Source of the DNA: Bordetella sp. | GTDB lineage: Bacteria > Pseudomonadota > Gammaproteobacteria > Burkholderiales > Burkholderiaceae_B | Length of the DNA stretch: 16,458 bases | Direction: 5' to 3' | NCBI GenBank assembly: GCA_027450125.1 | Contig: DAIDKG010000339.1 | Coordinates: forward strand, 1-16,458 | In this document: positions 9,231 through 13,495 of the stretch, piece by piece | How the letters are laid out: the number at the start of each line of letters is the position of its first letter | Numbering within the stretch: the first letter of the stretch is position 1 | The notes under the pieces: model-generated | Database searches by the model: none | The model's input: only the letters and a program-made list of their open reading frames with translations | What the model was told of the DNA's origin: nothing | Program-made: the position numbers and the translations under genes

Positions 9231-10667
9231 TCAACGCAGCACCTGCGCCTGCGCCTTGCGCACCGCCGCCGGCGCGATGCGCAGCGCCTCGCGGTATTTG
9301 GCCACCGTGCGGCGGGCGATCACGATGCCGCGCTCGGACAGGCACTGCATGATCTGGTTGTCGGACAAAGGCTTGCTGCGGTTTTCCTCGGCCACCATCT
9401 TGCGGATGTGCTCCTGCACCGCCGTGGCCGAAGCAGCGTCGCCGGTGTCGGTGGCCACGCCTGTGCCGAAAAAGCGCTTGAGCTCCATGGTGCCAAACGG
9501 TGTGAGCATGTACTTCTGTGTCGTAGCCCGTGAAATCGTGGACTCATGCAAGCCAAGCTCGCTGGCGATGTCCTTCAGGATCAGCGGACGCATGGCCGCG
9601 GCGCCATGGGTGAGAAAGTCTGACTGGTGCGCCACGATGGCCTGCGACACCCGCAGGATGGTGTCAAAGCGCTGCTCGACGTTGCGTATCATCCAGCGCG
9701 CCTGCTGCAGCTGGGCCTGCAGGGCGGCGTGGCCGCCCTCGCGCCGGTTGCCCAGCATCTGGGCATAGACGCCGTTGACATGCAGGCGCGGCACTACCGC
9801 GCTGTTGAGCACGGCCTGCCAGCCCAGGCGGGACTTGCGCACCAGCACGTCGGGCACGGCGTAGTCGGCCGCGGGCACGGTCCAGGCGCGCCCCGGGCGC
9901 GGATCCAGCCGCACGATCAGCGCATAGGCAGAGCGCAAGGTGTCGGCATCGCACTGCAGGGCCTCGCGCAGCCGCGCCGGGTTGCCCGCCGCCAGCAAGG
10001 GCAGGTGCTGCAGGCATATCTGGCGCGCGCAGGCCAGCACCTGCGCATCGGCCGCCTCCGGCAAGCGCGAGACATCGGGATTGCGCAGCTGCAGCCGCAA
10101 GCAGTCGGCCATGTCGCGCGCGCCGATGCCGGGCGGATCGAACGATTGCAGCAGCATGAGCGCGGCGCGCAATTCGTCGGCGTCGACATCGAGCTCGGGC
10201 GGCAGCCAGGTCAGGATCTCGTCCAGCGGCGAACCCAGATAGCCGTTGTCGTCGAGCTCGTCGATCAGCACGCGCACCAGGGTCTGATCGCGCGCCTGGG
10301 CGCGCGTCAGCGCGAGCTGGCCCAGCAGATGCTCGCGCAGCGTGTCGGTGTGCGCGGCCTGCGGCATGCCGCCGTCGTCGTCGGGATACACGCCGCCCGC
10401 GCCGGGCATTTCCTCGGCGCGCGACTCGGCCAGGTCGGACAGCGCGTCGCCCTGCTCCATGGAATCCTCGCGCTGCGGATCGGCCGCCTCGGCAGCGGGA
10501 GCCGGATCGTCGTCGCGCTCGAGCAGGGGGTTTTCGATCAGCGCCTGGGAAATCTCCATGTCGAGCTCGACGGACGACAGCTGCAGCAGCCGGATGGACT
10601 GCTGCAGCTGCGGCGTCAGGGCCAGGTGCTGGCCTTGACGAATTTCCAGGGCGGGACGGTTGCTCAT
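9231..10667 (-). CDS. rpoN: RNA polymerase sigma-54 factor
   Basis: The 478-residue protein has the standard sigma-54 length. Region I (about 5-48) has the Gln/Leu-rich LTPQLQQSIRLLQLS needed for activator response. An acidic linker (about 50-110) is region II. Region III contains the core-binding part, a helix-turn-helix at 367-386 (LGLHESTISRATTQKY) and the diagnostic RpoN box ARRTVAKYRE at 451-460, which reads the -24 element. All key parts are intact. MSNRP at 10667 is chosen. An alternative ATG at 10679 would overlap a candidate -10. The gene stands without the usual lptB/hpf/ptsN neighbours, and a membrane protein diverges only 39 bp away. Sigma-54 typically serves nitrogen, flagellar or stress genes driven by ATPase activators. 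Confidence 0.97.
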   Translation of the reverse strand: MSNRPALEIRQGQHLALTPQLQQSIRLLQLSSVELDMEISQALIENPLLERDDDPAPAAEAADPQREDSMEQGDALSDLAESRAEEMPGAGGVYPDDDGGMPQAAHTDTLREHLLGQLALTRAQARDQTLVRVLIDELDDNGYLGSPLDEILTWLPPELDVDADELRAALMLLQSFDPPGIGARDMADCLRLQLRNPDVSRLPEAADAQVLACARQICLQHLPLLAAGNPARLREALQCDADTLRSAYALIVRLDPRPGRAWTVPAADYAVPDVLVRKSRLGWQAVLNSAVVPRLHVNGVYAQMLGNRREGGHAALQAQLQQARWMIRNVEQRFDTILRVSQAIVAHQSDFLTHGAAAMRPLILKDIASELGLHESTISRATTQKYMLTPFGTMELKRFFGTGVATDTGDAASATAVQEHIRKMVAEENRSKPLSDNQIMQCLSERGIVIARRTVAKYREALRIAPAAVRKAQAQVLR

Positions 10668-10670
10668 AGG

Positions 10671-10680
10671 TACAATCATA
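10671..10680. promoter_or_regulatory. Overlapping divergent -10 hexamers between rpoN and the membrane protein gene
   Basis: Within ten bases lie TACAAT on the plus strand (10671-10676) and TATGAT on the minus strand (10680-10675), each matching five of six -10 positions. The minus hexamer is 7 nt before the rpoN ATG at 10667. The plus hexamer is about 30 bp before the ATG at 10707. Neither has a convincing -35. The two promoters could not be used at the same time. Confidence 0.4.
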
Positions 10681-10706
10681 AAGGTCAATCGGGCACTGCC
10701 CCTCGG

Positions 10707-11357
10707 ATGCCCAACTTTCCCGTGACCTACATGCCAGCCACTCCCGACCGCATACGCCAGGACCGCCGCCTCGTCGGCCAGACCCTCTTGAAGCTGTCGC
10801 TGACGCGCCTGGCCATCCTGGCCGTGGGCATCGCCGTCGCCGCGGGCATCTGGATCTACATCGCCTCGTGGATCCTGAACGATGCATCCCCCTGGATCCA
10901 GGGCCTGGACCAGGGAATCGGACTGAACTGGCAGCGCATCCTGGGTCCGACGGCCGTCAGCCTGCTCAACGGATTCATCAACCCCTGGCTGTGGCGCATC
11001 CTGGCGCTCATCTGGTCGCTCATCGTCTTTTATTCGCTCAAGGGCTGGATACGCTCCAGCCTGGCCGCCGGCCGCCTCTACACGGTTGACAGCCGCGTGC
11101 TGGCCCAGCTGCGCCCCAATTTGTGCGAGGAAGTGGTCGATGTTTTGCGCTGGGTCTGGCAGGACCGCAGCGAGCCCTTCACCATCGGCGACCTGCAGCG
11201 CGCGCACCGGGAGCTGCGCAGCAACCGCATCGGCAAGATCGCCCTGGCACGGGCGCAAGACGCCATTCTCGAACAGGGCGGCGGCGACGCCGCACTCGAC
11301 GACTCGCCACGCGCGGCGCGGCGCCAGGCCGAACCCACGCTCAGCCGGACGCGCTGA
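10707..11357 (+). CDS. Membrane protein of unknown function
   Basis: I do not recognise the family. The 216-residue product has two clear hydrophobic stretches: about 32-57 (LAILAVGIAVAAGIWIYIASW) and about 86-115 (the WLWRILALIWSLIVFYSL region, perhaps with an amphipathic lead-in). A cytoplasmic C-terminal half is rich in Arg and charged residues, with LYTVDSRVLAQLRPNL and repeated Trp. The ATG at 10707 follows weak ribosome binding sequence. Another ATG at 10731 is possible and would shorten it by eight residues. It sits between divergent rpoN and the leuL leader, 77 bp before leuL. Codon use is normal for the region, and the sequence shows no sign of transfer. Nothing seen points to a role. 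Confidence 0.75.
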   Translation: MPNFPVTYMPATPDRIRQDRRLVGQTLLKLSLTRLAILAVGIAVAAGIWIYIASWILNDASPWIQGLDQGIGLNWQRILGPTAVSLLNGFINPWLWRILALIWSLIVFYSLKGWIRSSLAAGRLYTVDSRVLAQLRPNLCEEVVDVLRWVWQDRSEPFTIGDLQRAHRELRSNRIGKIALARAQDAILEQGGGDAALDDSPRAARRQAEPTLSRTR

Positions 11358-11434
11358 TCCGCAGGCCTCGCGTGGCCGGGCCGCTTCGGGGCAAAAGGTT
11401 TGCGCTGCAGCGAAAAATATGAAAGACTAGAAAA

Positions 11435-11587
11435 ATGAACGCGCAATGCACCTTTGCACACGCCACGGCCTCGGGCAACGCCCGCGCCGGGTTTGCTGCC
11501 GCGCGTCTTTCCCGCATCGCCTTCCCCCTGGCCGCCTCGGCCGCGCTAGCGCTATCCCTAGACCTAGCGATCGGTTGCCGAGCCTAG
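11435..11587 (+). CDS. leuL: leu operon leader peptide (Leu-codon attenuator peptide)
   Basis: A 50-codon reading frame runs from ATG 11435 to TAG 11585-11587, upstream of leuA. Near its end, four leucines encoded by the rare codon CTA fall within seven codons: CTA-GCG-CTA-TCC-CTA-GAC-CTA (11546-11566). The surrounding genes overwhelmingly use CTG or CTC, so CTA clustering is far from background. Such runs slow ribosomes when leucyl-tRNA is scarce. It is followed by mutually exclusive RNA stems at 11576-11635. This is the arrangement of amino acid operon attenuation known from enteric leu, ilv and his operons. The promoter is unclear, but a -10 such as TATGAA (11418-11423) would give a very short 5' leader. 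The ribosome binding site is weak. The peptide itself is expected to have no enzymatic role. Confidence 0.8.
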   Translation: MNAQCTFAHATASGNARAGFAAARLSRIAFPLAASAALALSLDLAIGCRA

Positions 11588-11635
11588 CGTTCGTGGTGTT
11601 CGGCAGCCTTCGGCCCGCGGCGCATCCTGCCGCGG
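11576..11635 (+). promoter_or_regulatory. leu attenuator RNA region with competing stems
   Basis: Four segments can pair in alternative ways. A (11576-11583, TGCCGAGC) pairs with B (11598-11605, GTTCGGCA), eight pairs with one G-U. C (11615-11621, CCGCGGC) pairs with D (11629-11635, GCCGCGG), seven G-C pairs with a 7-nt loop. B can instead pair with D (CGGCAG 11601-11606 with CTGCCG 11627-11632). A ribosome stalled on the CTA codons would mask A and free B to capture D. A ribosome finishing at the stop codon would favour C:D. C:D is not followed by a clear T-run, so intrinsic termination is not certain. The structure is inferred by eye from complementarity. Confidence 0.5.
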
Positions 11636-11782
11636 CGCAGCTTGCCACAGGCCCGTTTACTGCTTAAAAATCAGAATCCAGCCCGCACTACCTTGCGGAC
11701 TGATGTCGGCACCGCTCTACCCCCTGGCCGCCACCCTGGCCAATCGCCGGCACAACGGATTCACGAGACCCGAGGCCCCGAA

Positions 11783-13495
11783 ATGATGTTCGCCAACCCT
11801 GCTACCAAATACGTCCCTTTCCGCCCCTTCACGCGCGACTATTCCGAGCGCACCTGGCCCAGCAAGCGCATCACCCATCCCCCCATCTGGATGAGTACCG
11901 ATCTGCGCGACGGCAACCAGGCCCTGATCGAACCCATGAGCGTGGAGCGCAAGCTGCGCTTCTTCGACCAGCTGGTGAAGATCGGCTTCAAGGAAATCGA
12001 GGTGGGCTTTCCCTCGGCCTCGCAGACCGATTTCGATTTCGTGCGCAAGCTCATCGACGAGAAGCGCATTCCCGACGACGTCACCATCATCGTGCTCACG
12101 CAGGCGCGTGAAGAACTGATCAGCCGCACGGTGGAATCGGCCGCCGGCGCCAAGCGCGCCATGATCCACCTCTACAACGCCTGCGCGCCGTCCTTCCGCA
12201 AGATCGTCTTCAACATGAACAAAGACGAAGTGAAGAACGTCGCGGTCACCGGCACCAAGCTGGTCATGAAGTACATGGCGCAGCATCCCGACACCGACTG
12301 GCGCTACGAATACTCGCCCGAAGTCTTCTCCACCACCGAACCCGAGTTCGCGCTGGAAGTGGCCAATGCCGTGGCCGAGACCTGGGGCGCCACGCCCGAG
12401 CGCAAGCTGGTGCTCAACCTGCCCGCCACCATCGAGGCCACGCAACCCAATCTGTACGCCGACCAGATCGAATGGATTTGCAAGAACCTGGCGCGCTGCG
12501 ACAGCATCATCGTCAGCCTGCACCCGCACAATGACCGCGGCACCGCCGTGGCCGCCGCCGAGTTCGGCGTGATGGCCGGCGCCGACCGCATCGAAGGCTG
12601 CCTCTTCGGCAGCGGCGAGCGCACCGGCAACGTCGACCTGGTGACGCTGGCGCTCAACCTTTATACCCAGGGCATCCACCCGGGGCTGGATTTCTCCGAC
12701 ATCGACGAAGTGCGCCGCACCGCCGAATACTGCAACCAGATCCCCGTGCATCCGCGCCACCCCTATGCGGGCGACCTGGTGTTCACGGCCTTCTCCGGCT
12801 CGCACCAGGACGCCATCAAGAAGGGCTTTGCGGTGCAGAAGCCCGATGCCGTGTGGGAAGTGCCCTACCTGCCCATCGACCCGGCCGACCTGGGCCGCAG
12901 CTACGATGCGGTCATCCGCGTGAACAGCCAGTCGGGCAAGGGCGGCGTGTCCTACCTGCTCGAGCAGGAGCACGGCCTGGTCCTGCCGCGCCGCCTGCAG
13001 ATCGAGTTCTCGCGCGCCATCCAGCGCGTCACCGACGAAACCGGCCGCGAAGTGACCTCGGGCGACGTGTACGGCATCTTCGACAGCGAATACCTGTCGC
13101 AGACCTCGCCCTGGACGCTGATCAGCCATCGCATCGAAAGCAATCCCTCGGCCGGCGAGGGCAAGCACTACACGGTCACGGCCGAACTCGAATACGACGG
13201 CAAGCGCCGCACGGTGCAGGGTAGCGGCGACGGCGCCCTGGCGGCCTTCGTCGCCGCCGTGGGCGAACCGATCCGCATCATGGACTACACCGAGCACGCC
13301 ATCGGCACCGGCACCGACACCCGCGCAGCCTGCTACGTGGAAACGCGCGTGGGCGATTCGCCCACCGGCTTCGGCGTGGGCATAGACGGCGACATCGTCA
13401 CCGCCTCGTTCCGCGCGGTGCTGAGCGCGGTGAACCGTCGCGTGGCCGCGCGCAGCATGATCGCCGAAACCACCGAAGACGAAGCCATCGCATAA
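11783..13495 (+). CDS. leuA: 2-isopropylmalate synthase
   Basis: LeuA condenses acetyl-CoA with 2-ketoisovalerate, the first committed step of leucine synthesis. The 570-residue product is the long, Corynebacterium-like LeuA type. The catalytic TIM barrel (about 34-310) carries [11 protein letters not shown] at 42-52, with the catalytic Arg-Asp and the metal Asp43. It also has HPHNDRGTA (247-255), which gives metal histidines His247 and His249, and GSGERTGN (276-283). The C-terminal regulatory domain (about 430-570) should bind leucine for feedback inhibition, with [17 protein letters not shown] present. ATG 11783 is chosen. Reading frame upstream to 11642 lies in the leader RNA and begins with TTG, so is not supported. 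The stop is followed by a strong terminator, so leuA is transcribed alone with leuL. Confidence 0.97.

Follow-up and report, generated by a model that had tools for sequence, protein, structure and literature searches.

The leuA gene of Bordetella sp. is preceded by a conserved leader element, and leucine is very probably sensed through translation of this leader. The element was studied in a 16,458 nucleotide stretch of DNA (contig DAIDKG010000339.1), here called the window, and in the corresponding regions of related genomes. Its conserved parts are a small open reading frame, the leucine codons near the end of that frame, a covarying RNA helix (S1), a second helix (S2) and the geometry of stop codon and linker. 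A response of leuA to leucine through these control codons is predicted from the leader. For the full model, a cis-acting switch in which the ribosome senses leucine and transcription termination is the output, we consider the chances to be evenly balanced.

An earlier note on this DNA had described a 50-codon frame with CTA at codons 38, 40, 42 and 44 and had called CTA the rarest leucine codon of the region. Translation and a check of the coordinates bore out the frame, whose C-terminal end reads ALALSLDLAIGCRA, with the CTA codons starting at positions 11546, 11552, 11558 and 11564 (Table 1). The rarity of CTA was confirmed as well: it accounts for 2 of 169 leucines across six coding regions of the window and for 2 of 1109 in leuA genes. 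At the coding rate of the window, the chance of finding at least four CTA among the six leucines of the leader is 2.9e-7; the cluster is therefore unlikely to have arisen by chance. Between the leader frame and the leuA start there are 195 bases. Upstream of the leader, on the minus strand (9231-11258), lies a frame with all three sigma-54 (RpoN) domains.

Table 1. Features of the leuA leader region (window positions)
Feature	Position	Strand	Basis or remark
-35-like TTGCGC	11400..11405	+	TTGCNN 19 bases before GACT in relatives
GACTA, -10-like block 5 bases before leader ATG	11425..11429	+	GACTN-to-ATG spacing in relatives
Leader peptide frame, probably leaderless	11435..11587	+	50 codons, TAG stop; ATG placed by promoter-like block
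Four CTA leucine control codons (codons 38, 40, 42, 44)	11546..11566	+	conservation of positions -2 and -4 in relatives
Helix S1, 5' arm GGTTGCCGAGC	11573..11583	+	11-bp helix, covaries
TAG stop codon, starts 1 nt past S1 5' arm	11585..11587	+	equal offset in 115 of 120 leaders measured
Helix S2, 5' arm GTGGT, immediately before S1 3' arm	11593..11597	+	alignment, geometry
Helix S1, 3' arm GTTCGGCAGCC	11598..11608	+	11-bp helix, covaries
Extra G+C-rich hairpin between S1 and S2 3' arms	11613..11638	+	spacing compared with relatives, predicted fold
Helix S2, 3' arm GCCAC	11644..11648	+	alignment
GAGG, Shine-Dalgarno-like sequence of leuA, without pairing to CTA run	11772..11775	+	pairing tests
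leuA, 2-isopropylmalate synthase	11783..13495	+	Pfam domains; TIGR00970 786 bits, cut-off 697

LeuA is present in 149 of the 151 genomes of the window's GTDB family. A DNA search with positions 11358-11785 gave matches in 103 of the 151, mainly over 11541-11609; a few of the matches listed sit elsewhere than at leuA. From the family 146 leuA upstream regions were gathered (G069, G079 and G147 have a LeuA match but were left out), and a sequence pattern located the leader in 127 of them. The covariance model R2 recovered it in five of the remaining 19, including G009, where a looser pattern (count 128) had given one misplaced match. Altogether the leader is present in 132 of 146 regions, with CTA as its last control codon in 126 of 127. 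The earlier note would have been refuted by a lack of conservation of the frame or its CTA codons in relatives, and this refutation fails. The 14 regions in which neither pattern nor model found a leader belong to seven genomes smaller than 1 Mb (G007, G039, G048, G078, G101, G121, G140), to two genomes of genus g24 with 1.6-1.7 Mb (G023, G058) and to five genomes of genus g35, whose LeuA identity is 55-57%.

The note had further called the attenuator lineage-specific, a description that did not survive the wider searches. The core pattern occurs in at least 118 stretches of named genomes, and the 80 named loci include Achromobacter, Bordetella, Castellaniella, Pusillimonas, Cupriavidus, Ralstonia, Massilia, Herbaspirillum and Rugamonas, among others. 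In 76 of the 80 named loci listed leuA lies downstream of the pattern; the remaining four reach only 62-256 bases downstream. Searching the order with covariance model R1 detected the element in 18 of 300 genomes; nine of the 18 do not belong to the window's family, and all nine copies precede leuA. With model R2 over the class it was detected in 6 of 274 genomes including the window's own; the other five, all outside the order, carry it before leuA. In family f7 it was detected by covariance model in 63 of 116 genomes, and of 20 loci retrieved 15 were tested by BLAST, all 15 being located before leuA. A search of the phylum gave 2 of 200 genomes, both belonging to the order. Since the filters of these searches were strict, absences are weak evidence. 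Genome G045 has a second match (L298, G045:C6:215665-215757, E 3.3e-4) with S1- and S2-like arms; it stands directly upstream of another copy of leuA, whose LeuA hit is at 173.

For comparison of the control codons, positions were counted backwards from the codon directly before S1 in the 127 family leaders. Position -2 is the nearly invariant CTA mentioned above, and position -4 is leucine in all 127, encoded by CTA (79), CTG (36), CTC (7) or CTT (5). Preservation of this leucine through four synonymous codons speaks for translation of the leader. Over the last eight leader codons 374 of 586 leucines are CTA, compared with the 2 of 1109 mentioned above, which come from 30 leuA genes (Fisher p about 1e-217, relatedness ignored). 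Position -3 is leucine in 96 of the 127 leaders, so that the spacing of the CTA codons by other residues in the window is one variant, and the suggestion of the note that the leucines are spaced rather than adjacent was not upheld.

In the two codons that separate the last CTA from S1 (window 11567-11572) the third bases are fixed (NNG in 126 and NNC in 127 of 127 leaders) and the first bases variable, and no helix found accounts for the fixed third bases. The ending IGCRA was considered as an arrest peptide and rejected because of this third-base constraint in the codons before S1; the S1 arm explains the remaining conservation.

Helix S1 was evaluated on two alignments. On 106 family sequences 99.2% of the cells were paired, with two pairs (six cells) changed on both sides. 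On 84 sequences including distant families the values were 99.0%, five pairs and 32 cells, and none of 500 shuffles reached S1 on any of five measures, although this alignment (A2; 83 distinct sequences) was model-guided and fitted to S1 and thus biased towards it. On the same 84 sequences S2 was paired in 99.5% of the cells, with U-A replaced by C-G, both sides changed, in three sequences; 71 of 500 shuffles equalled S2 on two of the five measures. On the first MAFFT alignment S2 was paired in 94.3% of the cells and did not rise above the shuffles in any measure; on four of the five measures all 500 shuffles were as high. Shifted arms in some rows are part of the reason. Extending S1 by an inner GCC:GGC pairing was rejected; this pairing holds in 93.1% of the cells and is weaker than the contiguous register chosen by RNAalifold.

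The S1 loop contains the 5' arm of S2; of 120 leaders measured, 111 have this arm 1 nt before the 3' arm of S1 (seven of the 127 were omitted from the geometry table, their S1 3' arm not having been located by the script). As read from the sequences, S1 and S2 follow each other in the order of an H-type pseudoknot; they share no bases and could co-exist in such a structure. In predicted folds the S2 segment alone closes GTGG:CCAC in 113 of 127 cases, and S1 wins in 127 of 127 when it is present. The distance from GTGG to CCAC is 52 in the window compared with 20-30 in most relatives; the window retains the S2 3' arm despite an extra hairpin of about 26 bases.

Taken in the single sequence, the stems are only mildly unusual: the fold of 11520-11680 has z = -1.75, with 7 of 200 shuffles equally stable, and 34 of 1000 dinucleotide shuffles of 11435-11782 hold a comparable two-helix layout. 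Since this layout is not rare for one sequence alone, it is the comparison with relatives that supports the stems. The RNA stems that the note had placed just after the frame were sustained in that the fold overlaps the end of the frame and is backed by the comparison. A CGCTAG/CTAGCG hairpin over the CTA codons, seen in the window fold, was rejected, as it is not conserved in the aligned relatives.

The start of the leader appears to be tied to a promoter-like block. In 87 of the 127 family leaders an in-frame ATG lies 5-7 bases downstream of GACTN, and in 78 of these 87 TTGCNN stands exactly 19 bases ahead of GACT. An ATG picked from the block alone, with no requirement as to frame, proved to be open and in frame in all 87, and a Shine-Dalgarno-like tetramer precedes the leader ATG in none of them. 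From the conserved spacing between block and ATG, which is the evidence for it, we infer that the start is likely leaderless in the window's family, a property that would not be general across the element. The GACTN-ATG pattern is missing in 40 of the 127; in ten of these the ATG used comes 20 or more bases after the GACT, and this is evidence against a leaderless start in those ten. A Shine-Dalgarno-like sequence precedes the leader in 14 of 15 Massilia-type, 3 of 13 Cupriavidus/Ralstonia and 12 of 19 f7 loci, the start in these groups being taken as the first in-frame ATG. By eye, several AT-rich leaders without GACTN-ATG have a TATAAT-like hexamer shortly before the ATG. A generic promoter scan of the window did not report the TTGCGC/GACTA block. 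Conservation of the block TTGC...AAAATATGNTTGACTA (window 11400-11429, 87 family leaders) exceeds that of an ordinary promoter, and as a -10 sequence GACTA is poor; the block may also be a regulator-binding site.

Other leader-like frames were noticed near leuA. In Massilia, Herbaspirillum and Rugamonas a second leucine-rich small frame with CTA codons, mostly ending in LLLRA or similar, lies upstream of the leader; by a loose criterion it is present in 15 of 15 loci (L163, L172, L173, L190, L192, L199, L202, L208, L210, L213, L219, L220, L224, L226 and L233), the example in L219 being of another kind. By their sequences these look like two tandem leaders before leuA. An ending LRLAR or similar followed by a stop occurs before leuA in Acinetobacter (L331), and such an ending is also found upstream of the main leader in several distant loci (L301, L302, L292, L294). 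The leuA of Sphingomonas (L332) is preceded by a small frame ending in LLLRSLRLIRP, with its TAG stop inside a long perfect inverted repeat; this frame is perhaps another type of leuA leader.

In its layout the window element closely resembles the LEU element known from actinobacterial leuA, and not enteric leuL. PMC1262725 describes the LEU element as consisting of a leader that contains leucine codons, of a pseudoknot, and of a base stem formed by the leucine codons and the leuA Shine-Dalgarno sequence. The Streptomyces lividans leader LeuL1, MRFGLLLLSCRGEGL, is reported in PMC8079986 to be leaderless and to have no typical terminator. Four actinobacterial leuA regions were compared, with S1 and S2 arms picked manually from the helix list. 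Their leaders end in LLLGRRDGV, LLLSCRGGGL, LLLLSCRDESSD and LLLGCRGGV; S1 has 11-12 bp, the stop lies 2-9 nt past the S1 5' arm and the S2 5' arm 0-3 nt before the S1 3' arm. (In the same set of measurements, which was not confined to these four regions, the loop lengths for L294 are an artefact: its S1 is a perfect inverted repeat and was assigned to the wrong strand. The S2 count for L328 sets arms of different length against each other.) Shared with the window are the location upstream of leuA, a leader ending in leucine codons and then Gly/Ser-Cys-Arg (compare LLLPIGCRA), an S1 5' arm formed by the frame end, a stop just beyond that arm and two helices in pseudoknot order. The two differ in leader length (40-53 residues in the window's family versus 13-16), in control codons (CTA versus CTT/CTC) and in S2 (5 bp versus about 7). 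A search with model R2 missed all three actinobacterial loci to which it was applied. Because of this result and because the base stem is missing in the window, the element is called LEU-like and is not filed as a LEU member. Rfam gave no family at gathering score for the window or for 17 related loci.

Enteric leuL likewise has a leader peptide with leucine codons, including the rare CUA. In the Salmonella typhimurium leu leader, changing three CUA to CUG reduced sensitivity (PMC1183508); the use of CTA as control codon is, to that extent, not new in itself. The window differs from leuL in having no intrinsic terminator, another helix layout, a yeast-type leuA gene downstream and a probably leaderless start. 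In the corynebacterial ilvB leader translation also begins at the transcript 5' end, according to PMC5784534 and to a title cited in PMC4046766, but that leader concerns other amino acids and another phylum, and for the leader described here the leaderless start is deduced from the conserved spacing. A literature search of partial coverage, with few subscription journals, gave no report of this leader in Betaproteobacteria.

The following sequence of events can be envisaged. The transcript would start at or a few bases from the leader ATG, and the ribosome would load without a Shine-Dalgarno sequence. In leucine shortage it would pause at the CTA codons; if the invariant leucine codon at -4 occupied the A site, the front edge of the ribosome, judged from its footprint, would end just before S1. 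S1 could then form, with S2 as its pseudoknot partner or excluded, and leuA would be expressed. With ample leucine the ribosome would move on to the TAG close behind the S1 5' arm, opening S1, so that S2 could form alone as a hairpin and leuA expression would fall. In lineages with a T-rich tract behind S2, the lone S2 hairpin would stop transcription ahead of leuA. By its usual footprint, a ribosome at the leader stop would also cover the S2 5' arm, which counts against the model.

For the output step the distribution of T behind S2 is informative. At least 5 T in 8 bases were found behind S2 in 68 of the 127 family leaders, compared with 11 of 127 further downstream, and in 13 of 13 Cupriavidus/Ralstonia loci; this enrichment suggests termination. 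In the window no stretch of 8 bases in the 25 nt after S2 has more than 4 T, and all 15 Massilia-type loci likewise have at most 4 in 8 bases behind S2; the weak or missing tract suggests a possibly translational or Rho-dependent output in these cases. On the + strand of the window no terminator-like site was found in 11200-11900. Of the leu attenuator proposed by the note upstream of leuA, the conserved frame, the leucine control codons, the preference for CTA and the RNA fold stand, whereas an attenuator of the classical termination type was not established: that part is weakened by the lack of a + strand terminator-like site, by the at most 4 T in 8 bases and by a layout that is LEU-like rather than leuL-like.

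The output might instead be exerted on translation, the run of leucine codons pairing with the leuA Shine-Dalgarno region and silencing it unless a stalled ribosome or the S1/S2 pseudoknot frees that region, in the manner expected of the LEU base stem. We regard this as rather unlikely, but as the first alternative to be reckoned with. In genus g4 the pairing is strong (percentile 0 to 0.017 relative to start regions from other genera), in g16 and in g1 with the exception of the window it is fairly strong, and low ranks against shuffles were obtained for G098 (0.000), G068 (0.002) and G132 (0.006); the Massilia-type loci, which have no T tract, fit such an output as well. The pairing is not general, however: of 36 genus means just one does not exceed 0.05 (median 0.51), and over the 127 leaders the own pairing is only slightly better than the swapped one (-18.2 versus -16.8 kcal/mol). 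In the window the base stem was not found (percentile 1.0 against other genera's start regions, rank 0.992 against shuffles). The four actinobacterial controls ranked at 0.018, 0.052, 0.092 and 0.306 in the same test, which is thus not sharp. As a general feature the stem was rejected for the window and kept for some genera. The Shine-Dalgarno-like sequence of leuA in the family is AGGTG in 71 and AGGAG in 5 of 127 regions.

Rho-dependent termination, by which release of the ribosome at the leader stop would expose C-rich RNA ahead of leuA, seems unlikely to us: C-rich stretches do occur behind S2 in the family and an intrinsic terminator was not found in the window, but the T enrichment behind S2 would then need another reason. 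Still less probable is that the RNA fold binds a protein or ligand and the frame is incidental. The 2005 paper on the LEU element (PMC1262725) reported codon mutations in Streptomyces coelicolor that did not agree with attenuation, for which reason the mechanism was left open, and proposed a binding protein; in the family studied here, the -4 leucine kept through four synonymous codons and the 87 of 87 in-frame starts argue that translation matters. That the leader product is a functional small protein and not a control peptide is very improbable, for although a frame of 40-53 residues stays open in 87 family leaders, its N-terminal part varies, NCBIfam has no family for it and its conserved end is accounted for by the leucine codons and the S1 arm.

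Sensing of leucine by the translating ribosome remains the preferred reading. More than 100 diverged betaproteobacterial copies keep the leucine codons, the stop position and both helices, and their joint retention argues for ribosome sensing. Tentatively, and with a little less than even confidence, we propose that the LEU-type element is a cross-phylum regulatory module that accompanies this type of leuA in Actinobacteria and in Beta- and Gammaproteobacteria. It would consist of a leaderless leader with leucines followed by Gly/Ser-Cys-Arg, an 11-bp helix and a pseudoknot with a linker of about 1 nt, its shape kept while its sequence has turned over; translation would sense leucine, the Betaproteobacteria using rare CTA codons for this, and the output would depend on the lineage. 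The element bears on the LEU mechanism left open in 2005. In Betaproteobacteria it would represent a leader peptide with a probably leaderless start, and it offers a natural test case for the choice of one rare synonymous codon by an attenuator.
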